Assembly (NCBI RefSeq): GCF_001940235.1
Contig: NZ_MJIE01000001.1
Coordinates: 1,054,001-1,118,000, forward strand
DNA: 64,000 nt
Reading direction: 5' to 3'
From: Hornefia porci
GTDB lineage: Bacteria; Bacillota; Clostridia; Peptostreptococcales; Anaerovoracaceae
Shown: piece by piece, positions 9,207 through 58,502 of the stretch
Position numbering within the stretch: the first letter of the stretch is position 1
Layout: every line of letters begins with the position of its first letter
Made by a program: the position numbers and the translations under genes
The notes under the pieces: model-generated
The model's database searches: none
Told to the model about the DNA's origin: nothing
What the model saw: only the letters and a program-made list of their open reading frames with translations

Positions 9207-10976
9207 CTACTTTACCTTCTTGTATACGATACCGGAATATGCTCCGTATATCTTCTTACCGCTGACTGTGCGGTATGCGCGAACCTTGTAATAATATGTC
9301 TTTCCTTTCTTAAGCTTCTGGTTGGTGTATTTCACGGAAGATGATTTCTTCAGGGTCGCAACGGTTTTATACTTTCCGGTTTTACCGGTGGCGCGAACGA
9401 CCTGATAACCGCCGGCTTTAGACACCTTTTTCCAGCTCACGGTAATCTTCCTGCTTCCCGCTCTGGCTTTCAATGAACCCGGCGCCGGCGGCACGACCTT
9501 CACCTTGAGTGTCGACGAATTGCCCGTCACCGAACCGTCCATCAGCTCCGCGCGAATCCGGAAGTAATAGGTTTTCCCTGTTTTCAGACTTCCGACGGCC
9601 GCCGATGTGGCGCTGTTCTTTGCGGTCTTCACCTTCCTGTAAGTTTTTTTGTCTGTGCTCTGGTAAATGACATAGGATTTGACATTCTCCCGCGGCGACC
9701 AGGACAGCGTGACCGACTCGGTCGTCTTCGGCGCGGATTTCAGACCGGTCACTGCCGAAGTGCTCTTGCCGCTGCCGATGGCCATGATGTCGCCGGCGTC
9801 ATTTTTGTAGTACAAATTCCCGTCCGCGTCGCTCACAACCGGCGAAATGCAATACTGCTGCAGGGGCGGTATAAAGGTCTCGCCCTGAGCCGAGACACTC
9901 AGGTCGTCAGTCAGTTCTATGTAATAGATTCCGCCCGGCGGCCGGTTGTAGGTGGAGTAGATGCAGATCTTTCCGCTGTTTCCTGTGGAGATCAGCATTT
10001 CACCCTGTACGTTTGCGGGAGCCTTCACTGTTTTCACAATCTCCATCTTATCCTTGTCAATCGCGTAGATGTTCCCGCCGTTGCTGCCTATGTAGAGGTT
10101 ATCACCGCTGATAAGCGGCGTATTGACGGAGGGAGCTATTTTGACCTTTCCGGTTTCTGTCAGACTCGTTCCTGAAACCTTATACTTTGTCAGATAGCCG
10201 ACCCCTGTGCTGTCCCAAGACATGGATGTGGCAGTCTTGGAGGCAACATAGACACTGCTGCCGTCAGACGCCGGGGTGGAACGGATGGTCATGCCCTCTC
10301 CGGCATTCAGGACCCTGGTGACAGTTGTTCCTGTCTTCGACGCGATGTAGAGGTTCCCGCCATCGCTTCCGAAGACCACAGAATCGCCCACCTCGCAGGC
10401 TCCGTCCCAGTAGTACCCTTCTTTGTCATACTGTCCCTGCTCCCAGGCGAGGGAAAGGTCTGAAAGCTTCAGTGCGAAGTACGTTCCGCCCTCGGTACTG
10501 TCGTTCCAGGTTCCGCCGTAGATCCGGTCTCCGATGATCTTCAGCGGTCCCTCGTTCTGTCCTTCAAATTTCTTGCTCTCTGCGAGCTTCTCAAGGTCGC
10601 TGCTGTACTTCACCACGCAGGAACCGTTCACAAAGACATATATGTTGTGGCTGCTGTCGATGGCGACCGGCGATGTACCAAAGCCCGCCGTACCGGGCAG
10701 CGTGCTTACGGCCAGCACCTTGCCGGTGTCTTTGTCCAGCTTGTACAGCTTCTTTCCCGCGACGAAGTATACATAATTTCCGTCCACTGCCGGCGGCGTC
10801 GGCGCGTTAGTGAAATCCATCGGCTTACCGGATGTAATGAAGCGCCATTTCAGATGGGTGTTCCAGGTTCCGACCGGCGTCTCAGCCGTTGTAACCGCCG
10901 CAAACGCACTGGCCGGCATCAGCATCGCGACTGCTATGACAAAGGTCAGAAGACCGATTGATATTTTTTTCTTCAT
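9207..10976 (-). CDS. Secreted PQQ-like beta-propeller protein with two FN3 domains
   Basis: A 589-residue exported protein. The signal peptide ends ASAFA (about residue 26). Repeated blades such as GNYVYFVAGKKLYKLDKDTG and GDNLYIGSNGGNIYAIDKD mark a PQQ-type beta-propeller (about 40-400). Two fibronectin-III domains follow, the second Lys-rich and similar to that of the downstream protein, so both may attach to the same wall component. No enzyme motif is seen. It is the first gene after the cobalamin riboswitch and its terminator; role in corrinoid capture or display is inferred from that control and its neighbour. The start has a GAGGAG site. Confidence 0.85.
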   Translation of the reverse strand: MKKKISIGLLTFVIAVAMLMPASAFAAVTTAETPVGTWNTHLKWRFITSGKPMDFTNAPTPPAVDGNYVYFVAGKKLYKLDKDTGKVLAVSTLPGTAGFGTSPVAIDSSHNIYVFVNGSCVVKYSSDLEKLAESKKFEGQNEGPLKIIGDRIYGGTWNDSTEGGTYFALKLSDLSLAWEQGQYDKEGYYWDGACEVGDSVVFGSDGGNLYIASKTGTTVTRVLNAGEGMTIRSTPASDGSSVYVASKTATSMSWDSTGVGYLTKYKVSGTSLTETGKVKIAPSVNTPLISGDNLYIGSNGGNIYAIDKDKMEIVKTVKAPANVQGEMLISTGNSGKICIYSTYNRPPGGIYYIELTDDLSVSAQGETFIPPLQQYCISPVVSDADGNLYYKNDAGDIMAIGSGKSTSAVTGLKSAPKTTESVTLSWSPRENVKSYVIYQSTDKKTYRKVKTAKNSATSAAVGSLKTGKTYYFRIRAELMDGSVTGNSSTLKVKVVPPAPGSLKARAGSRKITVSWKKVSKAGGYQVVRATGKTGKYKTVATLKKSSSVKYTNQKLKKGKTYYYKVRAYRTVSGKKIYGAYSGIVYKKVK

Positions 10977-11026: not shown

Positions 11027-11083
11027 CGTTTTCACTGCTGTGCATTCTGCGTCGGAGTATACCGCTCCCGCAGAATTCCTTTC

Positions 11084-11250
11084 ATGCAGGTTTCCTGGCT
11101 CGTGTTCTTCATCCTGACCCCGTCTTCCCGGAAATACCAGTGACTGCCCGTGCGGGCGGGGGCCGGACTCCCACTTACAGTGGCGGTACCGCGCAGGTTT
11201 CTCACCTGCTTCCCTCTCAGCGCCGCGTTCCGCGCGGCGAACATGAACTG
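11084..11250 (-). promoter_or_regulatory. Cobalamin (B12) riboswitch
   Basis: Read on the minus strand, the conserved parts occur in order: GGAAGCAGGTGAGAAACCTGC, GCCACTGTAAGTGGGAGTCC, and the B12 box AGCCAGGAAACCTGC (11086-11100). This matches the cobalamin aptamer consensus. A terminator follows about 60 bases later, so corrinoid binding should switch off the two secreted-protein genes. The 5' limit is approximate. Confidence 0.92.
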
Positions 11251-11262
11251 ACTTCTTCCATT

Positions 11263-11302: not shown

Positions 11303-12670
11303 TCACACCATCTTCGACGGGTCAACCCAGGCGTCGAAATCCTCCTCAGACACCAGCCCCAGCTTGAGGGCCGCTTCCTTCAGCGTCGTTCCTTCCTTAT
11401 GCGCCAGTTTGGCGATCTTCGCCGCGTTTTCATATCCGATATGCGGGTTCAGCGCGGTGACCAACATCAGCGATTTCCGCAGATTTTCATCTATTCGCTC
11501 CCTGTTCGGGCGAATCCCCTCCGCACAGTTTCTGCGGAAGGAGTCGCAGGCGTCCGCCAGCAGGTTCACCGACTCCAGGAAATCGTAAATCATCACCGGC
11601 ATGAACACATTCAGCTGAAAGTTCCCCTGCGACGCCGCCAGCCCGATGGTCGTGTCGTGACCCATGACCTGAACGCAGACCATGGTCATCGCTTCACACT
11701 GCGTGGGGTTGACCTTTCCGGGCATGATGGAGCTGCCGGGCTCGTTCTCCGGAATCGTGAGTTCGCCGATTCCGCATCGCGGGCCTGATGCCAGCCACCG
11801 GACGTCGTTGGCGATTTTCATGAGATCCGCGGCCAGCGCTTTCACGGCTCCGTGAACAAAGACCAGTCCGTCCTTACTTGTCAGAGAGTGAAATTTGTTT
11901 TCTGCGGTAACAAAATCCCTGCCCGTGATCCGGCTGACGGCGGCAGCCGACTCCTTTCCAAAATCTTTGTGGGCGTTCAGACCCGTTCCGACTGCCGTGC
12001 CGCCCAGCGCAAGCTCCCGCAGATAGCGCAGAGAGTCCCGCAGCATGGCGGCGTCGTGCTCAAGCATAGACCTCCACCCGCTGATCTCCTGACCCAGCGT
12101 CAGCGGAGTGGCGTCCTGCAGATGCGTCCGCCCCGTCTTGACGATGTCCATGTACTCCGTTTCCAGTCGCCGGAAGGTCTGCGTCAGGCACTCCACTGCG
12201 GGAAGCAGACGGTCCTCTGCGGCGCAGAGCGCCGCGATATGCATCGCGGTCGGGAAGGTGTCGTTAGAGCTCTGAGACTTGTTGACATGGTCGTTGGGAT
12301 GAAGGAGCTTTTTCCCGGCGATTTCATTTCCGCGATTGGCGATGACTTCGTTTACATTCATGTTCGACTGCGTTCCGCTTCCTGTCTGAAAAATCACCAG
12401 CGGAAAATTCCCCTCCAGTTTTCCATCTGTAATCTCATCGCATACACGGCCGATTAACTCCGCACGCTCCGCGTCAAGCATTCCGAGCTTTTCGTTAGCC
12501 TGCGCCGCCGCCTTTTTCAGCACCGCGAATGCGCGGATCACCTCCGGCGGCATCCGGTGCGTCCCGATTTTGAAATTCTCAAAGCTTCGCTCCGTCTGAG
12601 CGCCCCAGTATCTGTCCGCGGGGACTTTTACCTCGCCCATCGTATCGTGCTCGATTCTGTACCGTTCCAT
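11303..12670 (-). CDS. fumC: Class II fumarate hydratase
   Basis: A 455-residue fumarase of the aspartase/fumarase superfamily, interconverting fumarate and malate in the cytoplasm. The superfamily signature [16 protein letters not shown] is intact, [11 protein letters not shown] and [12 protein letters not shown] match the other active-site regions, and length is usual for FumC, an oxygen-stable enzyme without an iron-sulfur cluster. The start is preceded by GGAGGGAG. It lies in the same direction as maeA and argH, which supply and use its substrates. An aspartase identity is less likely because maeA is the neighbour, but cannot be excluded by eye. Confidence 0.93.
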
Positions 12671-12692
12671 TCGTCTCCCTCCTCATTTGTGT

Positions 12693-12828
12693 TCCGTGCT
12701 CCGACCTTCATCTTCGTGCTCCAGGCTTTCGTTCGGCTTTCATATCATGCTCCGAGCGGCACTGCGTATGCCTTATGCGGATTCCTTCGTGCTCCGGCCT
12801 GCCGCCCGGTTTTCGCATCATGCTCCGT
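12693..12828. repeat. GTGCTCCG repeats at the maeA stop codon
   Basis: The unit (A/G)T(C/G)(A/G)TGCTCCG recurs near 12695, 12713, 12744, 12785 and 12817; the last copy contains the maeA stop codon. The fumC-maeA gap (12671-12817) is mostly made of these imperfect copies. Confidence 0.55.
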
Positions 12829-13981
12829 ATTTTCCCCAGGCCTCTTTTACCGCTGCTGCCACGCGCTCCACCACAAGGGGGTTGAATCCGTCCGGGAGCA
12901 CGTAATCCGCTCTGAGTTCCTCCTCAGGAATTACGGCCGCGATCGCCCTCGCCGCGGCCTCCTTCATCTCCTCGGTAATCTTTGTCGCCCGGCAGTCAAG
13001 CGCGCCGCGGAAGATCCCCGGAAAGGCGATGACATTATTGACCTGGTTCGCGAAATCTGAGCGTCCGGTTCCCACAACCGCCGCACCGGCTTCTCTGGCC
13101 AGTTCAGGCATAATCTCCGGGACCGGATTGGCCATCGGGAACACGATGGGATCCTTCGCCATAGATCGGATCATATCCTGCGTCACGACGCCGGGTCTGG
13201 AAACGCCGATAAAGATATCCGCACCCTTCATCGCGTCCGCGAGAGAACCCGCCAGGTTGTCTTTGTTGGTCACCCTCGCCATGGCCTCCTGCTCCGGATT
13301 GTTATACGGCGCTCCCTCATAGATCGTCCCCCTGCTGCCGCAGAGAATGATATCGCCGAAGCCGAACCGCAGAAACATCTTTGCGATGGAAATTCCCGCC
13401 GCCCCGGCGCCGCTGAAAGCGATCCGCAGCTCTCCCGGTTTCTTTCCCGTGACCTTCAGCGCGTTCAGAATTGCAGCCGCGGTGATGATGGCAGTACCGT
13501 GCTGGTCATCATGAAATACCGGAATATCACATTTCTCAATAAGCCTGCGCTCAATCTCAAAACAGCGCGGAGCACCGATATCCTCCAGGTTGATACCGCC
13601 GAAGCTTTTGGAAATGTGGAACACCGTATCCACAATCACATCCGGATCCTTACTGTTCACGCAGATCGGCACCGCGTCGATATTCGCGAAGGTCTTGAAC
13701 AGCGCGCACTTTCCCTCCATGACCGGCATTCCGGCCGACGGTCCGATGTCTCCGAGCCCGAGGACCGCGCTGCCATCTGTAATCACAGCCACGGTATTGC
13801 CCTTTCCCGTGTAGGTATAGGCCAGCGATTCGTCCTTACTTATCTCCAGGCAGGGCGCGGCTACGCCCGGCGTATAAGCGACCGACAGCTCATCCCGATT
13901 TGTTATCGGAGCTTTGCTTTCGACGGAAAGTTTCCCTCTCCATTCCGCATGCTTCTTCAGCGCAATTTCATTATAGTCCAT
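12818..13981 (-). CDS. NAD(P)-dependent malic enzyme
   Basis: A 387-residue malic enzyme, decarboxylating malate to pyruvate. The short bacterial form is recognised from AYTPGVAAPCLEI, the substrate/metal region around DDQHGTA, and the nucleotide fold FSGAGAAGISIAKM. The start at 13981 (MDYNEIALKKHAEW) has AAAGGGA upstream; a start at 14026 would begin inside the upstream terminator. There is no phosphotransacetylase domain. It follows argH and precedes fumC on the same strand, so malate made by FumC can be removed to pyruvate. Cofactor preference cannot be read reliably. Confidence 0.93.
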   Translation of the reverse strand: MDYNEIALKKHAEWRGKLSVESKAPITNRDELSVAYTPGVAAPCLEISKDESLAYTYTGKGNTVAVITDGSAVLGLGDIGPSAGMPVMEGKCALFKTFANIDAVPICVNSKDPDVIVDTVFHISKSFGGINLEDIGAPRCFEIERRLIEKCDIPVFHDDQHGTAIITAAAILNALKVTGKKPGELRIAFSGAGAAGISIAKMFLRFGFGDIILCGSRGTIYEGAPYNNPEQEAMARVTNKDNLAGSLADAMKGADIFIGVSRPGVVTQDMIRSMAKDPIVFPMANPVPEIMPELAREAGAAVVGTGRSDFANQVNNVIAFPGIFRGALDCRATKITEEMKEAAARAIAAVIPEEELRADYVLPDGFNPLVVERVAAAVKEAWGKYGA

Positions 13982-14000
13982 AGTATATTCCCTTTCGTCC

Positions 14001-14037
14001 AAAAAGAAAAGGGCTGCAGCCTTCACGACAGCCCTCT
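14001..14037 (-). terminator. terminator or attenuator after argH
   Basis: On the minus strand AGGGCTG pairs with CAGCCCT and is followed by TTTTCTTTTT. Only about 20 bp separate the T-run from the maeA start, with no clear promoter between, so it may act as a leaky attenuator. Confidence 0.7.
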
Positions 14038-14050
14038 GTTTCCATTATTT

Positions 14051-15433
14051 TCAGTCCTTCAATGTCTCAAGCCAGTTCTTCCCGACACGAATCTGGCGGC
14101 GAACCTCATCGGGAGCTGTCCCGCCGAAGGATTTTCTGGCGCTGACACACGCCGGAATGCTGATGTCGCCCAGCGCCTCCCGGCTCAGACGCGGATCGAT
14201 GGCCTGCAGAGATTCCTCGTCCAGTTCTTCCAGCTGACAGCCGCGTTCCTCGCACGCCTTGACCATGTGACCAACGATATTATGCGCCTCCCGGAACGGA
14301 ATTCCCTCCATCGCAAGATGCTCCGCGACATCAGTCGCATTCAGGAAGCCTTTTGACAGCTGTTTTTCAATCTGATCCATGCGGAATTCGGTTTTGTCCA
14401 ACATCTTCGCGAATATCCGGATGCACGCCTTCCAGGTGTCCACAGCGTCAAACAGCCCTTCCTTGTCCTCCTGGAAATCTTTGTTGTAGGCGAGAGGCGT
14501 TCCCTTGAGCACGGTGAGCATCTGCATCAGATCGCCGTATACTCTGCCGCTCTTGCCCCGGAGCAGCTCCGCCATATCCGGATTCTTCTTCTGCGGCATG
14601 ATGCTGGAGCCGGTGCAGAAGCTGTCGTCGATGGCGATATAGGAGAATTCCGAGGTATTCCACCATGCAAACTCCTCTGCCCAGCGGGAAATATGCGTCA
14701 TGGAAATCGACGCGTCGCTGAGAAATTCAATCGCGTAGTCCCTGTCGCTAACGGAATCCATCGCGTTCTCCGTCGGCGCACGGAATCCCAGAAGCTCCGC
14801 GGTTCTGGCACGGTCTGTGGGGAAGGTGGTGCCGGCGAGAGCGCATGCTCCCAGCGGGCAGAGATCCATTCTTTCATAGGTATCCGTCAGACGCTCGATA
14901 TCCCGACGGAACATCTGGAAATACGCCATAAACACGAATCCGACGGTGATGGGCTGAGCGTGCTGGATATGGGTAAATCCAACGGTAATCGCCTCCGCGT
15001 ACTGCTCCGCCTTGCGCAGGATGACCTCCTCCAGCTCGATGAGTTCTGCCACAATGGTGCGGATCTGCTCCTTCAGGTACAGCCGCCCGTCCACCTGACA
15101 CTGATCGTTGCGGCTGCGGGCAGTATGCAGTTTCTTGCCCACCTCGCCGATCTCCTCGATCAGGCGGCTTTCGATGCCCATATGAATATCCTCGTCCTCC
15201 ACAGTGAATACGATTTCACCGCTGCGGATCTTTTCCCGGATCTTTTCCAGGCCGTCTATAATCTGTCTGCTCTCCTCTTCCGTGACGATGCCCTGCGCCG
15301 CCAACATGGTCACATGCGCAATGCTCCCGTCGATATCTTCATTATACATTCTCTGGTCAAACCCGATGGAAGCGTTGAACTCCTTCACGATCTGATCCAT
15401 GTCCTTTTCAAATCTGCCTCCCCAAAGAGCCAT
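14051..15433 (-). CDS. argH: Argininosuccinate lyase
   Basis: A 460-residue argininosuccinate lyase, the last step of arginine synthesis, releasing fumarate. The superfamily signature is GSSIMPQKKNPDMAEL; HTARSRNDQ and GFTHIQHAQP are typical ArgH blocks, and length is usual. It begins MALWGGRFEKDMD, a normal ArgH start, with GCAGGAGG upstream and a TATAAT -10 at 15467-15472 on the minus strand. No argG is in the window. Its product fumarate is the substrate of FumC two genes on. Confidence 0.96.
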   Translation of the reverse strand: MALWGGRFEKDMDQIVKEFNASIGFDQRMYNEDIDGSIAHVTMLAAQGIVTEEESRQIIDGLEKIREKIRSGEIVFTVEDEDIHMGIESRLIEEIGEVGKKLHTARSRNDQCQVDGRLYLKEQIRTIVAELIELEEVILRKAEQYAEAITVGFTHIQHAQPITVGFVFMAYFQMFRRDIERLTDTYERMDLCPLGACALAGTTFPTDRARTAELLGFRAPTENAMDSVSDRDYAIEFLSDASISMTHISRWAEEFAWWNTSEFSYIAIDDSFCTGSSIMPQKKNPDMAELLRGKSGRVYGDLMQMLTVLKGTPLAYNKDFQEDKEGLFDAVDTWKACIRIFAKMLDKTEFRMDQIEKQLSKGFLNATDVAEHLAMEGIPFREAHNIVGHMVKACEERGCQLEELDEESLQAIDPRLSREALGDISIPACVSARKSFGGTAPDEVRRQIRVGKNWLETLKD

Positions 15434-15487
15434 ATATGTTTACCTCCTGCAATTAAATTCGTTTATATTATACAACAAAAGGGAATA

Positions 15488-16327
15488 TCATTCATCCTGT
15501 TTTTTGCTGTACTCCGCGATTTCACCGCATGTCGCGAACCAGACGTCCTTCTCTGACTGCATATGATCCAGCAGCTCCTCCAGAAGACCCGTCCTCCCCG
15601 GCGCGCCGATCATGGCCGGATCCAGCTGCAGCACATAGCAAAGTCCGTACTCAGCCGCCCCGTCGAATTCATCGATCCAGTTGTCCAGAACCCCCGTGTA
15701 ATTCGCAATGCGTCCCTGACCCGCAGGGAACGCCGGATGATAATTGAAGGCGAAATACGGCAGATCATAGTTGACCCAGTGAATAGGAATCTCCGTCATG
15801 GTTTCTCCGTCGCCGAGATCGATCTCACAGGGGCGGTCGTCACAGCTGAGATTGCTGGAATACGTGAGACCGAGCTCTTTTGCCGCCTGCAGCGTTTCCA
15901 GCGTCAGCTCTCCCTGAGGAGTCCGAAACCCCCGCGGCGTTACGCCGCAGATCTTTTTGACCGCTTCTATGCTCTTTTTCAGGGAACTCTTCTGCTCTTC
16001 CTTTGTGTACAAAGCCATATTCTCATCGCGGCTGCCCATGATGCCGATCTCATGTCCCCGCGCCGCAATGCTTCGCAGGGTATCTGCATAATGCTCCGCC
16101 GCCCATCCGGGCACAAAGGCTGTCGCGCGCAGCTTCCGCTGCTCCAGAATGTCCAGGATTCTGCCGATGCCCCGATTCATTCCATACTGGCCGAGGGACA
16201 GCGTCTTAGGCTTGTCCGCACAGTCCGGATCCAGGTCCAGCCAGAACAGCTCCGCATTCAGGTTTAACGTGACTGTCGCGGCACAGCGATTTCCCCGCGG
16301 CCATACCGGTCTTTCCAGTTCCATCAT
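15488..16327 (-). CDS. Catalytically degenerate polysaccharide-deacetylase/cyclic-imide-hydrolase-like protein
   Basis: A 279-residue paralogue of the upstream gene with the same fold and order (GxYGMNRGIGRILDIL, GHEIG, RTPQGE). Every metal-binding or catalytic motif visible in the partner is altered: FDVDGD is replaced by LNLNAE (N22, N24 for Asp), HHGYAH by IMGSRD (Met97 and Asp101 for His), and the late FMGHPQ by QLDPAM. It is therefore probably a pseudoenzyme, perhaps a structural or regulatory partner of the active copy. The frame is intact and its start overlaps the partner stop (ATGA), so it is kept under selection and translated with it. No signal peptide. Confidence 0.8.
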   Translation of the reverse strand: MMELERPVWPRGNRCAATVTLNLNAELFWLDLDPDCADKPKTLSLGQYGMNRGIGRILDILEQRKLRATAFVPGWAAEHYADTLRSIAARGHEIGIMGSRDENMALYTKEEQKSSLKKSIEAVKKICGVTPRGFRTPQGELTLETLQAAKELGLTYSSNLSCDDRPCEIDLGDGETMTEIPIHWVNYDLPYFAFNYHPAFPAGQGRIANYTGVLDNWIDEFDGAAEYGLCYVLQLDPAMIGAPGRTGLLEELLDHMQSEKDVWFATCGEIAEYSKKQDE

Positions 16328-17187
16328 TCTGCCTCCTTTCCGATCGGATACTGCCGGCGGTACCAGTCAGCGATTTCGCTTCCGGTCGCCACCCAGACAT
16401 CGTCTCTTGCCGTAATGTTCCGGAGCAGATGATCCAGAATCCGGATGCGGCCCGGTGATCCCAGAACCTGGGGATGCCCCATGAAGGAAATCGCGAGTCC
16501 GTAACGGTAATGTCCCTCGAATTCTCTGAGGAAATTGTCCTCTACGTTCCGGTAGCAGGAGATCCTGTCCTGTCCGCAGGGTTCTGCCGGATACATGTTA
16601 TAGGCCATTGCCACATAGTCGTCCAGCTCCCATTTGGTGGGAATTTCAATGAAGTCTGTCGGCTCTCCGTCGATAACGGTCCGATACGGCCGGTCGTCGC
16701 CCCGCATTGAGCTGGAATAGCGGAAGCCTCTCTCATACAGAAGCTTCGGCGTCTCGACCGCCCAGTCGCCGGAGGGCGTCCGGAAACCGGTGATTTCTTT
16801 GCCGATCAGCTTCCTGAAGATGTCCTGCGACTTTTCGATGATCTCAATCTGCTCCTCCGTGCTCCTTCCCGCGAATCGCTCGTGGGCGTATCCGTGGTGT
16901 CCGATCTCATGTCCCTGCGCGTCGATCCGCCGGATCAGATCGGGATATCTTTCCGCTGTGAGCCCCGGCACAAAGAATGTCGCGCGCACGCCGTATTCCT
17001 CTAGCTTCGCCATAATGCGGTCCACACACCGGTTCGGTCCGTACCGGCCCACGCTCAGCGACCGCAGGTACCTGTCGCCGTTGGGCAGGCCTTTGTTACC
17101 GTTTTCCCATGTCGTGTCCCCGTCCACGTCGAACGTGAACATGACCGCGCACCGTTTTCCGTCCGGCCACTTTATGCTGTTGTCCAT
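16324..17187 (-). CDS. Polysaccharide deacetylase family hydrolase (HpPgdA / PuuE / cyclic imide hydrolase-like)
   Basis: A 287-residue CE4-type protein of the cytosolic HpPgdA/PuuE-like branch. It carries FTFDVDGD (D20, D22), GHEIGHHGYAHE (H98, H102), RTPSGDW, and a late HP motif, all intact. It has no signal peptide, so a small intracellular substrate is likelier than peptidoglycan; relatives hydrolyse allantoin or cyclic imides. A hydantoin-racemase-like gene under the same sigma-54 control supports a cyclic amide substrate, by inference. It is the first gene after a -24/-12 promoter; AAAGGAG precedes the start. Confidence 0.85.
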   Translation of the reverse strand: MDNSIKWPDGKRCAVMFTFDVDGDTTWENGNKGLPNGDRYLRSLSVGRYGPNRCVDRIMAKLEEYGVRATFFVPGLTAERYPDLIRRIDAQGHEIGHHGYAHERFAGRSTEEQIEIIEKSQDIFRKLIGKEITGFRTPSGDWAVETPKLLYERGFRYSSSMRGDDRPYRTVIDGEPTDFIEIPTKWELDDYVAMAYNMYPAEPCGQDRISCYRNVEDNFLREFEGHYRYGLAISFMGHPQVLGSPGRIRILDHLLRNITARDDVWVATGSEIADWYRRQYPIGKEAE

Positions 17188-17238
17188 GTTTATGCTCCTT
17201 TATCATTTTTTATAGTCGCAATCTATAAATTAATATTC

Positions 17239-17253
17239 GCAAGGAGCATGCCA
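17239..17253 (-). promoter_or_regulatory. sigma-54 promoter of the deacetylase-like pair
   Basis: On the minus strand TGGCATGCTCCTTGC matches the -24/-12 consensus TGGCAC-N5-TTGC with exact GG/GC spacing. It lies about 52 bp before the start codon. Confidence 0.85.
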
Positions 17254-17322
17254 AAAAAAAAGACGACATTTCAACACTTACCAATACAGCAATATCGAAA
17301 AGTCGCCTTCGCCAATATCCAA

Positions 17323-17341
17323 TAGGTTAATTATTAACCCA
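17323..17341. promoter_or_regulatory. palindromic activator site upstream of the sigma-54 promoter
   Basis: TAGGTTAATTATTAACCCA is a near-perfect palindrome about 86 bp upstream of the -24/-12 promoter. It overlaps the stop codon of the activator gene. The same sequence, with one change, occurs 88 bp from the second sigma-54 promoter. Confidence 0.75.
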
Positions 17342-19394
17342 TTATTCCTTCCGTCTGCAGCTGTTCTATCGCATCTAAAAGTTCTCGACCTTCGCCCGTA
17401 ATTACGCTTCCGCCGCGACCTCTCGCGCTGCGCACAAAGCCATAGGCAGAAAGCCTTGCAAGCGCCTTTCTTACCTCACCCTCTGAATACATCTCACCAT
17501 TACTGTTTATTTGGTTGGTCAGCCTCTTTCGTCCTGCGCGCTCACCTTGACCGAACGATGTTTTAAGTTCCCTAAGAATTATTCCATGCAACTCAATATC
17601 TCTGCCTTCATTGAGAATAAATTTTTCAATAAATGTGGGCTTCCTCATTTCCAGAGGTCTGTAAGGTTTCCCCGCATTATCATGGAACTCCGGAAGTTCC
17701 TTTTCCGTAATATTCAAATTTCCAAGACTGGTAAGATACTCTGCAACATTGCGCAGTTCTCTCACGTTCCCCCTCCATCCGTGTCTGATTAATTTCTTTT
17801 GTGCAGCTGTGTTTATTTTCATGCCCGGATTTAATTTATTTGTATAAGACTTGAGAATCAGAAGAATGTCTTCTTTCCTTTCTCTCAACGGTGGAAGCTG
17901 TAACGGAAGTACATTCAGACGATAATACAAATCTTCTCTGAACTTCCCCTCAGCCATCATGCGATCAAGGTTCTCATTGGTTGCAGAGATAACGCGCACA
18001 TCAATATCAATATTTTTGCTGGAGCCAACTCTCATAACTTTCTTTTCTTCTAGCACACGCAAAAGTTTCGCCTGAAGCGAAAGAGGCATCTCTCCGATTT
18101 CATCCAAAAAAATGGTCCCTTTGTGTGCCAATTCAAAAAAGCCTATTTTCCCTCCCTTTCGAGCACCGGTGAACGACCCCTCTTCATATCCGAACATTTC
18201 ACTTTCCAGAAGATTCTCCGGAATGGCAGAACAGTTAACCGCAACAAAATTATATCGGCTTCGTCGAGAAGCATTATGTATACTCTGCGCAAACATTTCT
18301 TTCCCTGTTCCGCTCTCACCGGTGATCATTACCGCGGCGTCACTGGCTGCCATTCGTTTTGCAGTCTCCACCGTTTTACGAATCGAAGGACTTTCACCAA
18401 GGATATCCTCGAAATGATAGTGCGCAATATGGTCTGCTCCACTTAACTTTGCTCTCATTCCGTGCTGTTTTTCTTCTTGTTCATCAAAGTCTGTTATTGT
18501 TACAATATGACCGGCCGTCTCATCGCCATTTATGATTTCCACAGGAGCAACAATCAAATTCGCGCCAGAAGTCCGAATCAAAGTTTCTGATGTTGAAGAA
18601 AGGTCGATTTCAGGAAGAACTTCATTGATATTGAACCCTTCCAGCACAGCCGTTCTCCCTTGAAGCAGCTCTCTGGCTTTTGCATTGGAAATATAAATTT
18701 TTCCCAATTCATCCGTTATGACAATTCCATCCTTCATCAGTTTCAGCATTGCTTCCAGCTTGCTGGTCATGCTTGCAGTATCGTTGAGAAGACGATCCAT
18801 ACTGGAATTCATATAATAATATTCTTTTCTCGCTTCTATGGCTTCATGCGTTGAAAATTCTTCTGAAACGCCCAGTTTGTCCGCAATTGCCATTAAACTG
18901 TTCAGGTCAACCGAACTCTCGCCCAGATTGTATACGGTTTCAATCGTTTTCGGAACCAGGTGTGATTCATTTGGCGTAATTGCGACATGAATATCGTGAT
19001 CATAATCGCCCTCCCCATAATACGGAATCAATTCTACATCACGATACCCCGCATCGTACATTGATGTAATCGTATGCATACATGATCGATTGTCAAAATT
19101 GACCAAGAGCGCTCGAGTCCCTTTGGGTATTTCAGACAGACGTTCCATCTGCTTTTTACTTAATGACAAAGAAAGAACTATAATCTCCGAATTTGAACTG
19201 ATTCGCTTACGAACCTGCTGAAAGATATTAAAGGCTGAGATCAACACAAAGTCTTCGGTTATTCCCCCCTGTCTCTCCACTTCCGGAATTGAGTAAGAAT
19301 TGAATTCCGCATATCGACCGAGAAACTTGGAAATGTTATCTGTAAGAAAATCCGCATATTCTTTTTTCGTTGCAACCACTGCGATCTTTTTCAT
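17334..19394 (-). CDS. PrpR-type sigma-54-dependent transcriptional activator
   Basis: A 686-residue activator. Residues 1 to about 170 resemble the PrpR N-terminal sensor. A PAS-like segment follows (about 205-310), then an AAA+ sigma-54 interaction domain with GESGTGKE (Walker A), GSFTGA (a tolerated form of GAFTGA) and GTIFLDEIGE (Walker B). The C-terminus ends in a winged-helix-like segment (GEVRKALARLSAYGFV) instead of a clear Fis helix-turn-helix. It sits between its two presumed target operons, each with a -24/-12 promoter and a shared palindrome. The gene is visibly AT-richer than the argH side, which suggests transfer. Its own promoter looks sigma-A-like. Confidence 0.93.
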   Translation of the reverse strand: MKKIAVVATKKEYADFLTDNISKFLGRYAEFNSYSIPEVERQGGITEDFVLISAFNIFQQVRKRISSNSEIIVLSLSLSKKQMERLSEIPKGTRALLVNFDNRSCMHTITSMYDAGYRDVELIPYYGEGDYDHDIHVAITPNESHLVPKTIETVYNLGESSVDLNSLMAIADKLGVSEEFSTHEAIEARKEYYYMNSSMDRLLNDTASMTSKLEAMLKLMKDGIVITDELGKIYISNAKARELLQGRTAVLEGFNINEVLPEIDLSSTSETLIRTSGANLIVAPVEIINGDETAGHIVTITDFDEQEEKQHGMRAKLSGADHIAHYHFEDILGESPSIRKTVETAKRMAASDAAVMITGESGTGKEMFAQSIHNASRRSRYNFVAVNCSAIPENLLESEMFGYEEGSFTGARKGGKIGFFELAHKGTIFLDEIGEMPLSLQAKLLRVLEEKKVMRVGSSKNIDIDVRVISATNENLDRMMAEGKFREDLYYRLNVLPLQLPPLRERKEDILLILKSYTNKLNPGMKINTAAQKKLIRHGWRGNVRELRNVAEYLTSLGNLNITEKELPEFHDNAGKPYRPLEMRKPTFIEKFILNEGRDIELHGIILRELKTSFGQGERAGRKRLTNQINSNGEMYSEGEVRKALARLSAYGFVRSARGRGGSVITGEGRELLDAIEQLQTEGIMG

Positions 19395-19424
19395 TATATT
19401 TTGTCCCTTCGTGATATTACCCCT

Positions 19425-19452
19425 ATTATACTACAAAAGAGCCGTCATACAA
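19425..19452 (-). promoter_or_regulatory. sigma-A-like promoter of the activator gene
   Basis: TATAAT (19425-19430) and TTGTAT (19447-19452) lie 16 bp apart on the minus strand. The -35 overlaps the terminator of the operon upstream. Confidence 0.55.
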
Positions 19453-19463
19453 GGCGGCTCTTT
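19436..19463. terminator. terminator after the racemase gene
   Basis: AAAGAGCCG pairs perfectly with CGGCTCTTT; on the minus strand a T-run follows. It separates the symporter-racemase transcript from the activator gene. Confidence 0.85.
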
Positions 19464-19472
19464 CCAATATAA

Positions 19473-20210
19473 TTAAAGGTTCACATGACTTTCATTCATG
19501 AACAGCGGATAAGATGCCCTCGGGTGTGTCAAACCGATACGAACACACATTTCCGCATAAGCTACAGCGATAAACGCCGGGTCAAAAACCTTCACAGGAA
19601 GATTCTTTTCTATAGCAGACCCATAGTTTGCCATTCCGAGGCAGCCCAGTACTACGCCATCAATCTGTTCTTTTTCTACCGCTTCACGGCATACTTGAAT
19701 TAATCGCTTTTCTATGGCCGTAGGATCCTTTCTGAGTTCCCCAATCGGCACATCCAAAGCTCTTACGGAACTCATTTTGTCTCGGGCAATGGCATACCTC
19801 CTTAACCTGCGATAAGTCCGGGCAATGTTACGACTTTCTGTTGTGATCACAACATACCGGTTGCAGACAAGTCCTGCTGCAGCGAGAGTGGTTTCTCCCG
19901 GGCCGACCACAGGAATACTGACATTTTCACGAATTGCATCTATCGCCACATCGCTGAAACAGTAGATAACGATAGCATCATACCCTTCTTTTTCAGCCTG
20001 AATGCTTCTTCGTACCATCTCCGGAGAAGCGAATGCCTCATCAGTATTACAGTCCAGTTCATCCGGACCTTCTTTTATACAATCCACCGATATCTCAGTT
20101 TTCTCCGACACAGCGCAGCTTAACATACTTTCGCGCTGATCCATCGTTTCCCGGTCCATCGCCTTATCAGTCATAATTACTTTGATTTTCAAAACGTCCT
20201 CCAAAGTCAT
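19473..20210 (-). CDS. Asp/Glu/hydantoin racemase family protein
   Basis: A 245-residue protein of the aspartate/glutamate/hydantoin racemase superfamily. The two catalytic cysteines of the hydantoin racemase branch are present in context: IYCFSDVAIDAIRE in the middle and GVVLGCLGMANYG near the C-terminus, with VPVVGPGE following the first. Hydantoin racemases interconvert D- and L-5-substituted hydantoins; the substrate here is inferred. Its start overlaps the symporter stop (ATGA), so uptake and racemisation are coupled. It belongs to the transcript driven by the sigma-54 promoter at 21830. Confidence 0.85.
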   Translation of the reverse strand: MTLEDVLKIKVIMTDKAMDRETMDQRESMLSCAVSEKTEISVDCIKEGPDELDCNTDEAFASPEMVRRSIQAEKEGYDAIVIYCFSDVAIDAIRENVSIPVVGPGETTLAAAGLVCNRYVVITTESRNIARTYRRLRRYAIARDKMSSVRALDVPIGELRKDPTAIEKRLIQVCREAVEKEQIDGVVLGCLGMANYGSAIEKNLPVKVFDPAFIAVAYAEMCVRIGLTHPRASYPLFMNESHVNL

Positions 20211-21766
20211 TCCGCTTTCTTTTCCAGTGCTGCTTCTTCAGTCCAGACATCTGAATCCACTCCGATGTCTGCTGCAACAAATCTTTTTCCTTTTGACATC
20301 TTATAATCATTATAAGCTGCTATAACATATTTTCTTCCAATAATCAATGTCGGTACATTAATGAACACCAACACGATATTAATCAAATCAGAGACAGTCC
20401 AGAGATTGTCCAGCTGAAGTCCCGCGAGAACAGTCAGTGTTCCAAGAGGAACAAAGATGAATGCGCCCAGCACACGGATAAAGCGAATAAATTCTTTGCT
20501 CTGAGAAATTTTATTCGCTGCGATTTCCGAATACGTCAGGTCACAAACCAGCGTCGTAAATGCAAACAATCCGAAGCATAAAGCCACAATAACAACAACA
20601 GTTCCATCTAATTTTGTACCCGGGACCAGCGCTCTTATTGATGCAAGGAAAGTTCCAATCTTATCAAGACTGATTTCACTCCAATTGATATTTTTGTCTT
20701 CCCAAATTGCTCCCGCAGACACAATAAACCCAGTCAGCGAGCAAATCACTATCGTATCAACGAATACACCTATTGCCTGCACAAATCCCTGCTCACAAGG
20801 GTGATTCTGATCTGCGATAGACGATGCCTGAGTGGAAGTTCCCATACCGGCCTCGTTTGACAGCAGAGCTCTCTTCAATCCATTCGCCAGAGTCACACCG
20901 AACACCCCGCCAAAAATCGATTGCGGTTTAAACGCCTGCACAAATACTGCCGCAAAAAATCCGGGAACCTTATCGAGATTCAAGAGGATCAGCACAAAGG
21001 TAATTGCCAAATACAGAAGTGCCATAAAAGGAACTGCTCCATCCGCGAAAGAAACCGCATTTTTGATTCCTCCAAAAGCGATAACTGCAATCACAACGAT
21101 AATTACCGCTGCGATTATATAATATGCGGGTTCGCTTACGTCCGTCGTCCTGCCGACAAAAACATTCATAATCGAACTTGCTGCCGTAAAAACATGGAAG
21201 GTATGAACCGGTATGCTGAGAAGATTGTAAATCAGATACATCACGCACATCGCCGTGCCAACCCAGATTTTGTTCTTCCAGATCTTCTGAATATAGAAAG
21301 TAAATCCTCCGACATACTCATTTCCTTTTTTCTCTTTAAAGATCTGCGAGAGGGTAGCTTCACTGAATGCTGTCGCCATTCCAAACAAAGCAGAAATCCA
21401 CATCCAGAATATGGCTCCCGGACCGCCCAGCGAAATCGCACCGGTAACCCCAACGATATTACCAGCACCAACTCTACCGCCCATGCTGATCAAAAAAGCC
21501 TGCAATGGGGTTGTTCCCGTTTCCCCTTTTTTGCGTTTTGGCGATAACAGTTTCAAACCGGTCTTAAATCCTTTAATCTGTACAAATCCCAGTTTAAAAG
21601 TAAAATAAATTCCGCAGCCGAGCAAAAATAAGATGCCAAGTGAGTACTGCCCTAAAATCGGAATTGACGCATACCATTCATAATTAGTCGGAAAGTCCCA
21701 AAGGAAATTACTAATCGGAACTACTCCGGCAAAAAGCTGATCTACTGCATTGAAAATTCCATCCAT
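20207..21766 (-). CDS. AGCS-family sodium:amino-acid symporter
   Basis: A 519-residue membrane carrier with about 10 hydrophobic segments. LISMGGRVGAGNIVGVTGAISLGGPGAIFWMW and the later NEAGMGT motif are hallmarks of the alanine/glycine:cation symporter family. It should import a small amino acid or related compound with Na+. It is the first gene after a sigma-54 promoter and shares its control with the deacetylase-like pair. AAGGAG stands before the start. It is AT-richer than flanking housekeeping genes. The exact substrate cannot be read. Confidence 0.93.
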   Translation of the reverse strand: MDGIFNAVDQLFAGVVPISNFLWDFPTNYEWYASIPILGQYSLGILFLLGCGIYFTFKLGFVQIKGFKTGLKLLSPKRKKGETGTTPLQAFLISMGGRVGAGNIVGVTGAISLGGPGAIFWMWISALFGMATAFSEATLSQIFKEKKGNEYVGGFTFYIQKIWKNKIWVGTAMCVMYLIYNLLSIPVHTFHVFTAASSIMNVFVGRTTDVSEPAYYIIAAVIIVVIAVIAFGGIKNAVSFADGAVPFMALLYLAITFVLILLNLDKVPGFFAAVFVQAFKPQSIFGGVFGVTLANGLKRALLSNEAGMGTSTQASSIADQNHPCEQGFVQAIGVFVDTIVICSLTGFIVSAGAIWEDKNINWSEISLDKIGTFLASIRALVPGTKLDGTVVVIVALCFGLFAFTTLVCDLTYSEIAANKISQSKEFIRFIRVLGAFIFVPLGTLTVLAGLQLDNLWTVSDLINIVLVFINVPTLIIGRKYVIAAYNDYKMSKGKRFVAADIGVDSDVWTEEAALEKKAE

Positions 21767-21829
21767 ACATTATCTCCTTACATACAATATGATCAATAAC
21801 AAATAACATTGCGACCATCATTATTCATA

Positions 21830-21844
21830 GCAACATACATGCCA
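21830..21844 (-). promoter_or_regulatory. sigma-54 promoter of the symporter-racemase operon
   Basis: On the minus strand TGGCATGTATGTTGC fits the -24/-12 consensus with exact spacing, about 64 bp upstream of the symporter start. Confidence 0.88.
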
Positions 21845-21915
21845 AATTTCTTTTCACAGAAAATTCAAAGTTTCGCCGATTTGCAATTTTTTATTAACGC
21901 CAATTTTGGCATTAA

Positions 21916-21934
21916 TGGGTAAATAATTAACCTA
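21916..21934. promoter_or_regulatory. palindromic activator site, second copy
   Basis: TGGGTAAATAATTAACCTA is the reverse-orientation copy (18 of 19 bases) of the site at 17323-17341, about 88 bp upstream of the second sigma-54 promoter. Confidence 0.75.
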
Positions 21935-21975
21935 TTGTTCCAATTTATTGTCTGTTGTCATAGTCGATGTCGCAG

Positions 21976-22004
21976 TTGATAATGTTATAACAATTCATTA
22001 TAAA
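21976..22004 (+). promoter_or_regulatory. promoter of the MFS gene
   Basis: TTGATA (21976-21981) and TATAAA (21999-22004) lie 17 bp apart, 49 bp before the start codon, divergent from the symporter operon. Confidence 0.6.
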
Positions 22005-22053
22005 ATCTGTACATCAATATGTTCTTTCTCTGCATATTGACTATCTTGAATCT

Positions 22054-23286
22054 ATGCGCTATATTCAGATTATGAAAATGGTTTCACAGTATCGAGGACT
22101 TCCTAAGCAAATCTATTTTCTCTGCGTCGTACGCCTGATTGAAGAAATGGGGCTTATGTTTGTATTCCCGTTTTTATCTTTACTTATGACACAAAGGCTG
22201 GGATTCTCTACTATACAGGCTGGTTTTCTCATGCTGTTCACTTCAGCATGCAGTACAGCGGGGACCTTAACAGGAGGGAAACTTGCTGATGAGTTTGGAC
22301 GGCGCAGAATCTGTATAACGTTGACCATTATCGTGATTATGGCGACATTCGCTGCAGGAGCGACATGCTCCCGTCCGATCGTACTGTTATTTGTGATCAT
22401 CGCATATACCGCAAATAGTGCGATTGTTCCGGCGGCATCCGCATTCGTCATTGACTTATCAACGCCAGAAACCAGGAATGACTGCTTTTCTCTGCTTTAC
22501 ATCTTTGTTAATGTCGGATGCTCTTTCGGTCCTGTTGTTGCCGGCCTCTTATTTTATAATCATATGAGATGGATTTTCTATTCAATGGCCGGTCTTTATC
22601 TGATCGCTCTTTATATTTTGTGCACCCGCATCAAAGATCATTATATTCCGCATTGCAGGCACAGTACAAAAGAAGAAGAAAGCCTGATTTCAATTACATT
22701 TCACAGACCTGTGCTCTGTATTTTTATAGGCTGTCTTATAGCCATTACTATGTGTTATATGCAGCTTAGCTATGTTCTTCCGATTCAACTCAGCGACACT
22801 TTCGGTCTGAACACAGGTTCCAAGCTCTCATCTCTGCTTTGGACCGCTAATGGTATTCTGTGCGTCATCCTGACACCATCAATGATGCTGATTATTAAAA
22901 GACTGGATCCGCTGCTCAATGTTGTTATCGGAGTACTGATTTATATTGCAGGCTTCGGAATATATGCATTTCCAATCACTGTTCCACTTTTTACTGTCTC
23001 AACAGTAATCTGGACAATCGGTGAAATCTTTATCAATACAGAATCAACCGTATTTATTGCAGAAATGGCTCCTCACACTCATAACGGAAGAGTGATCAGT
23101 CTTTACGAGTTCTCAAGAGGTATGGGAAAGTGCATTGGTCCGCCGATATTCAGCTACGCCTTAGTTTACACAAATTACAGCGGTATATGGATTTCTATCA
23201 GTGTGATATTCGGAGTTATCGCCGGAATACTTGCTTTACTTTACCGGAAATCCCATCATTCGCACCGTAATTCTGCGAATTCTTGA
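22054..23286 (+). CDS. Major facilitator superfamily transporter
   Basis: A 410-residue protein with about 12 hydrophobic segments. GGKLADEFGRRRI between helices 2 and 3 is the MFS loop motif, and the family of drug- or metabolite-exporting MFS proteins fits the length. The substrate is unknown. The gene is divergent from the sigma-54-controlled symporter and shares its AT-rich composition, so it may belong to the same acquired segment. No good ribosome binding site precedes either candidate start (22054 or 22072). It ends three bases into the -35 of the next promoter. Confidence 0.88.
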   Translation: MRYIQIMKMVSQYRGLPKQIYFLCVVRLIEEMGLMFVFPFLSLLMTQRLGFSTIQAGFLMLFTSACSTAGTLTGGKLADEFGRRRICITLTIIVIMATFAAGATCSRPIVLLFVIIAYTANSAIVPAASAFVIDLSTPETRNDCFSLLYIFVNVGCSFGPVVAGLLFYNHMRWIFYSMAGLYLIALYILCTRIKDHYIPHCRHSTKEEESLISITFHRPVLCIFIGCLIAITMCYMQLSYVLPIQLSDTFGLNTGSKLSSLLWTANGILCVILTPSMMLIIKRLDPLLNVVIGVLIYIAGFGIYAFPITVPLFTVSTVIWTIGEIFINTESTVFIAEMAPHTHNGRVISLYEFSRGMGKCIGPPIFSYALVYTNYSGIWISISVIFGVIAGILALLYRKSHHSHRNSANS

Positions 23287-23310
23287 CAGACAATTCTCTG
23301 TTGCTATAAT
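23283..23310 (+). promoter_or_regulatory. promoter of the D-cysteine desulfhydrase-like gene
   Basis: TTGACA (23283-23288) and TATAAT (23305-23310) are both full consensus, spaced 16 bp. The -35 overlaps the MFS stop codon. Confidence 0.75.
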
Positions 23311-23388
23311 AAAGGCAGAAAAGCAGATCTTTCATCGGTAAATATTCCGGAATCGTATGAGAATAAAGTTTGCAGGAGGTACATGAAC

Positions 23389-24414
23389 ATGACATTAGGA
23401 CGCGAAAAGGTGTGTTTTCTGAACACGCCGACCCCTCTGGAGCAGCTGAAAACCGTGTCGCGGGAGCTGGGGATCCGGTTTTACATGAAGCGGGACGATC
23501 TGACCAACTACGGAACGGGCGGCAACAAGCTCCGGAAGCTGGAATATTTTGTAAAGGACGCGCAGGATCACGGCGCGACGATGCTCCTGACCGTGGGAGG
23601 AGCACAGACCAATCACGGCAGACTGACTGCGGCGATCGCCGCACGCTACGGATTCCGTTCTGCCATCGTGGCGGTGGACCCGTATCCTGGAGAGATTTCC
23701 GCCAACCTTCTGCTGGACGGAATCATGGGATGCCAGGTGTATCTGGTCCGCAAGGACGGCAGAACACCGGACAGTCAACTTCTTCAGGACGCTGTGGCAC
23801 GGGTCACAAAGGAATGGGAGGAGAAGGGAGAAAAGGTCTACTTCATCCCCATGGGCGGTTCTGACGAGCTGGGAGCGCTGGGTTATTACGACTGTGCTCT
23901 GGAGCTGGATGCGCAGATCCGGGAGCAGGGAATCACAAATCCCCATATCATCGTCACTGTCGGGAGCATGGGCACCTATATGGGGCTTGCGGCGGCCATC
24001 GCGAACGAGCATCTGAATATGAAGCTTACCGGCATCGGGATCATGCCGTACCGGGACATCACCGGTCACGCACTGGATTACTATGAACGGCTGCGGAAGA
24101 CTTACGGTCTGGAAGCGGTTCTGCGCCGGGAGGATTTTCACATCAACACTGATTTCGACTATGGGGCTTATAACAATCCGGTGGAGGATGTGCGCAAGGC
24201 CATCTATTACATGGGGCGCAGGGAGGGAATCATTCTCGACCCCTGCTACACCGGCAAGACATTCAATGCAGTAAAAAAACTCGCCGAACGCAGCGAGCTT
24301 TCGAAAGAGGATTCCTATATCATGATCCATACCGGCGGCATTCCGGGCATCTATACGAAGCACCACCGCTCCGAGATGGAGGTGGAGCTGATGAACTACA
24401 TGCACATCATCTGA
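23389..24414 (+). CDS. D-cysteine desulfhydrase / ACC deaminase family PLP enzyme
   Basis: A 341-residue fold-type II PLP enzyme of the ACC deaminase/D-cysteine desulfhydrase family. FYMKRDDLTNYGTGGNKLRKLEYF contains the PLP lysine (GGNKLRKLE), and GGAQTNHGR is the usual following block. The bacterial role is usually breakdown of D-cysteine to pyruvate, H2S and ammonia, or of related D-amino acids. The start at 23389 is chosen because AGGAGGT lies 8 bases upstream; an ATG at 23383 is only 2 bases from it. Composition is GC-rich, unlike the MFS gene before it. Confidence 0.88.
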   Translation: MTLGREKVCFLNTPTPLEQLKTVSRELGIRFYMKRDDLTNYGTGGNKLRKLEYFVKDAQDHGATMLLTVGGAQTNHGRLTAAIAARYGFRSAIVAVDPYPGEISANLLLDGIMGCQVYLVRKDGRTPDSQLLQDAVARVTKEWEEKGEKVYFIPMGGSDELGALGYYDCALELDAQIREQGITNPHIIVTVGSMGTYMGLAAAIANEHLNMKLTGIGIMPYRDITGHALDYYERLRKTYGLEAVLRREDFHINTDFDYGAYNNPVEDVRKAIYYMGRREGIILDPCYTGKTFNAVKKLAERSELSKEDSYIMIHTGGIPGIYTKHHRSEMEVELMNYMHII

Positions 24415-45764: not shown

Positions 45765-45818
45765 TTGCGTTTGTGATATAATTATATATAGAGTTATAGG
45801 TATGTAACGGAGGTGACT

Positions 45819-58493: not shown

Positions 58494-58502
58494 TTCCCCC
58501 TC

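Follow-up and report, generated by a model that had tools for sequence, protein, structure and literature searches.

A sigma-54-controlled catabolic island occupies part of a 64,000-nucleotide stretch of the Hornefia porci genome (contig NZ_MJIE01000001.1, positions 1,054,001 to 1,118,000; hereafter the window, numbered from its first base). The original prediction described five of its genes, for a sigma-54 activator, a CE4 hydrolase pair, an Asp/Glu/hydantoin-type racemase and an AGCS-family symporter. The positions of all five were confirmed, and Pfam and TIGRFAM profiles confirmed their broad families. The island is larger than first noted: no operon end was visible at 15488, where that gene set had been taken to end, and genes for an argininosuccinate-lyase (ASL)-type lyase, a malic enzyme and a fumarase continue on the same strand (11303-15433). 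We propose that the island encodes an inducible pathway for breaking down an argininosuccinate-type compound, most likely the five-membered-ring anhydride and its epimers, and we give this reading a probability of about one half. Its features are as follows.

11303..12670, minus strand: fumarase C (PF00206 371.8 bits, PF10415 94.2 bits)
12818..14026, minus strand: malic enzyme, GTG start as listed, ATG at 13981 (PF00390 101.5 bits, PF03949 77.9 bits)
14051..15433, minus strand: ASL-type lyase (TIGR00838 605.7 bits, cut-off 279.5)
15488..16327, minus strand: CE4-B, partner without the metal site (4-bp overlap with CE4-A; residue comparison)
16324..17187, minus strand: CE4-A, CE4 fold with complete metal site (PF01522 88.5 bits)
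17194..23362, unstranded: AT-rich cassette differing from Hornefia butyriciproducens (adjoining flanks 95% and 91% identical)
17239..17253, minus strand: -24/-12 promoter before CE4-A, TGGCATGCTCCTTGC (exact motif match)
17320..17344, unstranded: candidate activator site 1, core GGTTAATTATTAACC, perfect palindrome (repeat common to both promoters)
17334..19394, minus strand: sigma-54 activator (PF00158 243.7 bits; 16-sequence alignment)
19473..20210, minus strand: Asp/Glu/hydantoin-type racemase (PF01177 128.6 bits; 4-bp overlap with AGCS)
20207..21766, minus strand: AGCS-family Na+:amino acid symporter, first gene of putative operon 1 (PF01235 323.2 bits; TIGR00835 317.5, cut-off 272.65)
21830..21844, minus strand: -24/-12 promoter before AGCS, TGGCATGTATGTTGC (exact motif match)
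21913..21937, unstranded: candidate activator site 2, core GGTAAATAATTAACC, one mismatched pair (repeat common to both promoters)
22054..23286, plus strand: divergent MFS transporter within the swapped cassette (PF07690 162.3 bits)

Same-strand gaps were 54 bp (CE4-B/ASL), 24 bp (ASL/malic enzyme) and 147 bp (malic enzyme/fumarase), and we infer that CE4-A to fumarase form one co-transcribed operon. In the proposed route, the activator, probably acting on GGTTAATNATTAACC-like sites, would switch on two operons. The AGCS symporter would bring in the compound, the racemase would correct the configuration at the succinyl carbon, and CE4-A with CE4-B would hydrolyze a cyclic amide to open L-argininosuccinate; the likeliest such amide is the five-membered argininosuccinic anhydride. 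The lyase would release arginine and fumarate. Fumarase and malic enzyme would take fumarate through malate to pyruvate, and arginine would pass to an arginine deiminase encoded elsewhere. The substrates of import, racemization and ring opening, like the direction of flow, are predictions from gene content. A fumarate-releasing endpoint is highly probable and arginine as co-product is probable, while the anhydride as CE4 substrate is an attractive guess that falls somewhat short of even odds.

Argininosuccinic acid is reported to lose water and cyclize to a five-membered ring (PMC6918381). By structure this anhydride would be a 2-iminohydantoin bearing an acetate arm. A hydantoin-type racemase and an allantoinase-like CE4 enzyme would suit such a ring. 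The earlier idea of importing, racemizing and ring-opening a cyclic amide agrees with the conserved racemase cysteines and with the allantoinase PuuE and HpPgdA as relatives of CE4-A (both described below), but the route it drew stops too early, as it continues to a fumarate-releasing lyase. Ring opening is kept; the substrate is narrowed, since this lyase and the neighbouring arginine-catabolic genes favor argininosuccinate over hydantoins or dihydropyrimidines in general. A literature search, with most subscription journals outside its coverage, found no publication under phrases naming argininosuccinic anhydride, none linking argininosuccinate, fumarate and catabolism with sigma-54 in Clostridia, none joining polysaccharide deacetylase with cyclic imide hydrolase or with an argininosuccinate lyase/racemase operon, and none pairing EDDS lyase, iminodisuccinate and argininosuccinate lyase.

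The CE4 pair and its metal site

We scanned genome contigs and kept the best 80 of 274 CE4 loci, from six phyla: 40 from Bacillota/Synergistota and 40 from other phyla. Among these best 80, a second CE4 gene directly followed the first in 80/80 loci. Residues were compared in 81 rows (the 80 loci and the window). We observed that five CE4-A residues, the metal-site residues D20, D22, H98 and H102 and also H238, were each conserved in 81/81 rows. The window CE4-B has N, N, M, D and D at the same places, so that the Asp-His-His metal triad is present in CE4-A and absent from CE4-B. The predicted "hydrolase pair" therefore holds as far as both proteins belong to the CE4 family, but only CE4-A has the metal site.

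Across the 81 rows, CE4-B retains D20, D22, H98, H102 and H238 in 32, 17, 29, 41 and 36 rows, respectively. D20, H98 and H102 occurred jointly in only three CE4-B rows, all from Actinomycetota, and all five residues in one locus (L047). The loss took different forms in the two groups. In Bacillota/Synergistota (41 rows), residue 20 was N and residue 238 was D or E in 41/41. Of the 40 rows from other phyla, 32 retain D at residue 20 and 36 retain H at residue 238; there the loss fell mostly at histidines 98 and 102. The 119 listed CE4-B homologues nearest to the window carried N20, D238 and R136 without exception (119/119). This invariance suggests that CE4-B has a fixed signature of its own and is not decaying at random. 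The CE4 pair is a clear natural example of a metal-less enzyme copy that has been retained, across phyla, next to a twin that binds metal.

A CE4 tree was built from 32 of the 81 pairs and eight single or extra CE4 rows; four rows were long. One branch (support 100/98) split all A rows from all B rows in both groups, which argues that the duplication is older than the separation of Bacillota/Synergistota from the other phyla. Seven of the eight extra rows fell on the B side of that branch, and the branch separating B rows from most extra rows was weaker (86/63). More distant CE4 relatives were found without a partner gene. Homology searches returned 979 sequences for CE4-A and 720 for CE4-B (overlapping sets, not all of them paired). 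Plasmids carry Pseudomonadota versions. As to a phage origin, a phage collection gave one weak match (32%), in a 691-kb Salmonella record. An apparent natural A-B fusion (P0075, 450 aa) was set aside as a frameshifted contig, because its linking stretch looks out of frame.

The best solved match to CE4-A was 3rxz (167.6 bits; named only "polysaccharide deacetylase"). The PuuE allantoinase, which we take to be encoded by a single gene, and HpPgdA (HP0310) are CE4-fold proteins associated with small molecules and are among the nearest solved relatives of CE4-A; they share its fold family and match over most of its length (3qbu 104.1 bits, 3cl6 56.1 bits). Their structures are homo-oligomers of one gene, whereas in the window a metal-binding copy and a metal-less one stand in tandem. 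HpPgdA is described as a homotetramer (PMC3084791) and PuuE as non-metal-dependent (PMC10967932). CE4-A would be the catalytic member and CE4-B a non-metal partner, presumably in an A-B complex; CE4-B itself may be silent, regulatory or a metal-free enzyme. If the argininosuccinate reading is true, many entries named "polysaccharide deacetylase" would be small-molecule amidohydrolases made of two parts, with a concrete substrate, and gut anaerobes would gain a defined use of a metabolite of the urea cycle and of the cyclic form that it takes spontaneously. The broadest form of the proposal is more tentative than the anhydride guess alone: a widespread, undescribed two-part CE4 enzyme would open argininosuccinic anhydride in a dedicated route served by either of two epimerases and controlled by any of at least three regulators (the sigma-54 activator, GntR-FCD and LysR).

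Linked enzymes and the predicted substrate

The window ASL was the only match in the genome above the curated ArgH cut-off; two further matches scored 55.1 and 19.9 bits. Its translation carries GSSIMPQKKN, which fits the GSSxMPxKxN loop that we take to be the ArgH motif. The genome also has argG, with arcA a few kilobases from it, and both lie away from the window ASL. Counts of genes near the pair are lower bounds. An ASL-type lyase was found in 21/40 Bacillota/Synergistota loci and 31/40 other loci, and a malic enzyme, which adjoins ASL in several relatives, in 13/40 and 0/40. When placed on one tree together with canonical ArgH sequences, the pair-linked lyases required at least four label changes. 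Their main groups were one from Bacillota and one from Actinomycetota/Pseudomonadota, with two single cases apart. The lyase thus seems to have been recruited more than once, although long branches blur single placements.

The racemase residues C84 and C190, presumably the two catalytic cysteines of Asp/Glu/hydantoin racemases, were both present in 23/23 rows. The best solved chains are named as hydantoin and allantoin racemases (78.9 and 62.5 bits), which share PF01177 and both cysteines with the window protein at these modest scores. We found an Asp/Glu racemase near the pair in 22/40 Bacillota/Synergistota loci and 0/40 others, and an AGCS symporter in 23/40 and 0/40. MmgE/PrpD showed the opposite distribution (0/40 and 34/40), and no MmgE/PrpD epimerase was found among the ten window genes scanned (11303-24414). 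The window AGCS subtype (at least 700 bits) adjoined a racemase in 9/9 cases, compared to 1/14 for a second subtype that scored 578-603 bits; two truncated rows were excluded. This is as if that transporter imports an isomer needing correction.

Iminodisuccinate degradation uses an iminodisuccinate (IDS)-epimerase and a C-N lyase, and its epimerase and fumarate-lyase logic resembles that of the island. The MmgE/PrpD protein of locus L047 matched a Bacillus protein (126.3 bits) and this IDS-epimerase (2hp0, 124.4 bits) about equally. The window differs in having an Asp/Glu racemase instead, and in the CE4 pair. An MFS homologue was found in 5/40 Bacillota/Synergistota loci. Beyond the window MFS gene, a pyridoxal 5'-phosphate (PLP) enzyme on the plus strand (23383-24414) matched D-cysteine desulfhydrase and D-cysteate sulfo-lyase models below cut-off.

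Arginine-catabolic genes (arginine deiminase, arginase, agmatinase) were scored at >100 bits in 86 CE4 loci, the 80 above and six plasmid loci. They were present in 19/86, eight of them outside one Pantoea/Enterobacter lineage. Arginine deiminase (arcA) exceeded its curated cut-off in five loci (L018, L029, L032, L035 and L039), and L043 carries two arginases over cut-off. A Paracoccus plasmid pair locus has an arginase and an ornithine cyclodeaminase over cut-off. Agmatinase-type genes were found in L050 and in 11 loci of the Pantoea/Enterobacter lineage.

Several observations weigh against the argininosuccinate reading. The arginine-gene search was prompted by, and made after, the Paracoccus locus, and its comparison, 0/11 in ASL loci without an intact pair, used a small and unmatched set (181 kb versus 1.6 Mb). 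Moreover, 11 of the 19 positive loci are that one lineage, where the agmatinase-type gene lies on the opposite strand at least 1 kb away. Four pair loci (L014, L016, L018 and L045) have no linked lyase, with one ArgH elsewhere in the genome. A racemase was not found in 18/40 Bacillota/Synergistota loci, nor in the 20.9-kb locus of H. butyriciproducens (L006). At the position of window ASL D26, which we take to correspond to delta-crystallin D33 near the arginine end, D was present in 22/23 Bacillota lyases and Y or F in 31/31 Actinomycetota/Pseudomonadota lyases, whose substrate may therefore differ. CE4-B could be an active metal-free enzyme. CE4-A at ≥70% identity was found in 4/119 family genomes, its own included (a sample of a larger group), and in neither of the two same-genus genomes drawn. 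The neighbourhood on which the original prediction was to be judged hence falls apart in close relatives, and yet it persists across phyla.

ASL-malic enzyme-fumarase runs also occur without the CE4 pair in relatives, a further point on that side. In G106 and G120 the pair-less run has an NhaC-type transporter behind an activator and a -24/-12 site. G106 keeps a deletion relic (L159:6183-6722) in which an AGCS start stands beside a CE4-B end, behind an intact activator. In another relative (L170:12141-13169), an ATC_hydrolase-family gene lies between an activator with a -24/-12 site and ASL-malic enzyme-fumarase, in the usual place of the CE4 pair.

These runs bear on the best-surviving alternative, which we consider unlikely: that the ASL is an ordinary arginine-biosynthesis gene, metabolically unlinked, behind an operon for a cyclic amide such as hydantoin, dihydroorotate or carboxymethylhydantoin. 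Its main support, and a point against our reading, is the placement of the lyase clade in two genomes, after carA and carB and opposite argG in G129 and beside argG in G054. The same arrangements make it very likely that this clade cleaves argininosuccinate. In addition, argG is present in 13/15 family genomes with the clade, 12 of those 13 have no strong ArgH-type match other than the clade ASL (the exception, G026, has three in all), and the same-genus G022 and G111 have the ASL without CE4-A. However, the linkage of lyase and pair recurs in other phyla despite a second, unlinked ArgH-type copy in 7/7 Actinomycetota/Pseudomonadota genomes searched. G022 and G120, the two of the 15 without a credible argG, have kept lyase, malic enzyme and fumarase. 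Likewise, 2/22 genomes with the pair (G146 and G147) lack a credible argG, and there pair and lyase stand together.

Less likely again is a different adduct of fumarate, for example S-(2-succino)cysteine or one of its derivatives, from which the lyase would free cysteine for use by the D-cysteine-desulfhydrase-like PLP gene. YxeQ, which we take to belong to the MmgE/PrpD family, is part of the known systems for this compound. The yxe loci are reported to have a 2SL fumarate lyase, an ABC transporter and YxeQ of unassigned function, and the yxe/2SL route likewise combines a fumarate-releasing lyase with amino-acid-type uptake (PMC9706529). An ABC permease in L079 best matched a cystine-permease model, below cut-off (167 versus 300). 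The PLP gene, itself below cut-off, has homologues in 5/40 loci, and in two relatives, L163 and L171, an M20 gene lies close to ASL. In contrast to the yxe system, the ten window genes scanned include no acetyltransferase or M20 deacetylase, and the lyase scores 605.7 bits as ArgH, the only one of its genome. Arginine genes recur beside the pair, although cysteine genes had no equivalent search. It is improbable that the pair acts on other arginine-derived rings with no need of a lyase, such as the methylglyoxal hydroimidazolones formed by glycation: the Paracoccus pair would fit, since arginase and ornithine cyclodeaminase accompany it and the 18.8-kb stretch fetched has no annotated ASL, but the repeated ASL linkage is left unexplained and ASL would not be expected to cleave carboxyethyl-arginine.

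Sigma-54 control and the exchanged cassette

Sigma-54 control of both gene sets, as first suggested, agrees with the presence of rpoN in the genome (PF04552, 211.5 bits), with exact promoter sites and with their recurrence in relatives. Both -24/-12 promoters read TGGCATG-N4-TTGC on the minus strand, and they were the only exact TGGCAN6TTGC matches in the window. With one mismatch allowed, there were 13 matches versus a shuffle mean of 16.8, so that only exact matches are informative. In relatives we counted exact TGGC[AC][CT][AG]N4TTGC, on both strands for whole loci. An exact site stood just before AGCS or CE4-A in 12/13 activator-bearing Bacillota/Synergistota loci (all except L026). Exact matches numbered 20 in 249 kb of these 13 loci. 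The 27 Bacillota/Synergistota loci without a visible activator had 3 in 484 kb (one match, in L007, falls inside a cluster on a truncated contig), and the loci from other phyla, 40 in number, had 19 in 763 kb. Among loci without the activator, a GntR-FCD gene was found in 12/40 cases, and LysR in at least 20/40 other-phyla loci.

A 25-nt near-palindromic element is common to both window promoters (24/25 matching, in inverted orientation) and stands 66 and 68 bp upstream of the respective -24 boxes. GGTTAA...TTAACC palindromes ahead of promoters were recognizable in 6/13 activator loci. A search for further regulon members gave five other genome places (2-3 mismatches), 0/5 with a -24/-12 match in the surrounding 3 kb; the palindrome alone is therefore not diagnostic.

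The genome encodes about 20 full sigma-54 activator domains among 25 matches. The window activator consists of an N-terminal region of ~200 aa, a PAS domain and an AAA+ domain with GSFTGA. Residues 1-207 had zero Pfam matches (E up to 5), and the C-terminus gave weak winged-helix matches and no Fis-type helix-turn-helix match. PrpR_N was absent from the best 25 of 26 families matched by the whole protein at E up to 5. The activator resembles PrdR and PrpR in its AAA+ sigma-54 module and PAS-type region but scored below both model cut-offs (PrpR 317.8, cut-off 499.2; PrdR 370.8, cut-off 795). Given the unmatched first 207 residues and the weak C-terminal matches, the label "PrpR-type" is unsupported.

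The activator-symporter part is AT-rich, as originally stated. The G+C content was 0.43 for AGCS, 0.46 for the racemase, 0.43 for the activator and 0.42 for the adjoining MFS gene, compared to 0.56-0.58 for both CE4 genes and for the lyase, malic enzyme and fumarase genes. The closest relative fetched was H. butyriciproducens. Its DNA was 94.9% identical up to 17193, six bases before the CE4-A start, and identity resumed at 23363 (91.0%), twenty bases ahead of the PLP gene; the remaining blocks were 89-97% identical. Within the cassette, protein identity was 58% for the activator, 52% for AGCS and 49% for MFS, and the 20.9-kb locus held no racemase counterpart. Outside it, identity was 99% for CE4-A, 95% for CE4-B, 96% for ASL and 98% for malic enzyme. 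The AT-rich block is real, but "acquisition" describes it less well than replacement: the regulator-transporter-racemase block is a cassette replaced in one or other of the two species, precisely ahead of an unchanged CE4-lyase operon.

H. butyriciproducens also carries ~1.5 kb beside fumarase (L006:15812-17274) that is absent from the window. Just below the window fumarase, a cobalamin riboswitch on the minus strand (11068-11261; RF00174, 102 bits) faces a gene for a beta-propeller/fibronectin-type protein (9207-10976). Elsewhere, an AT-rich patch contains a plus-strand transposase gene (45813-47660; DDE_Tnp_1), and an AT-rich block on the minus strand (57840-60710) encodes an ABC ATPase, a DUF2705 protein and two proteins without a Pfam match at 1e-5.

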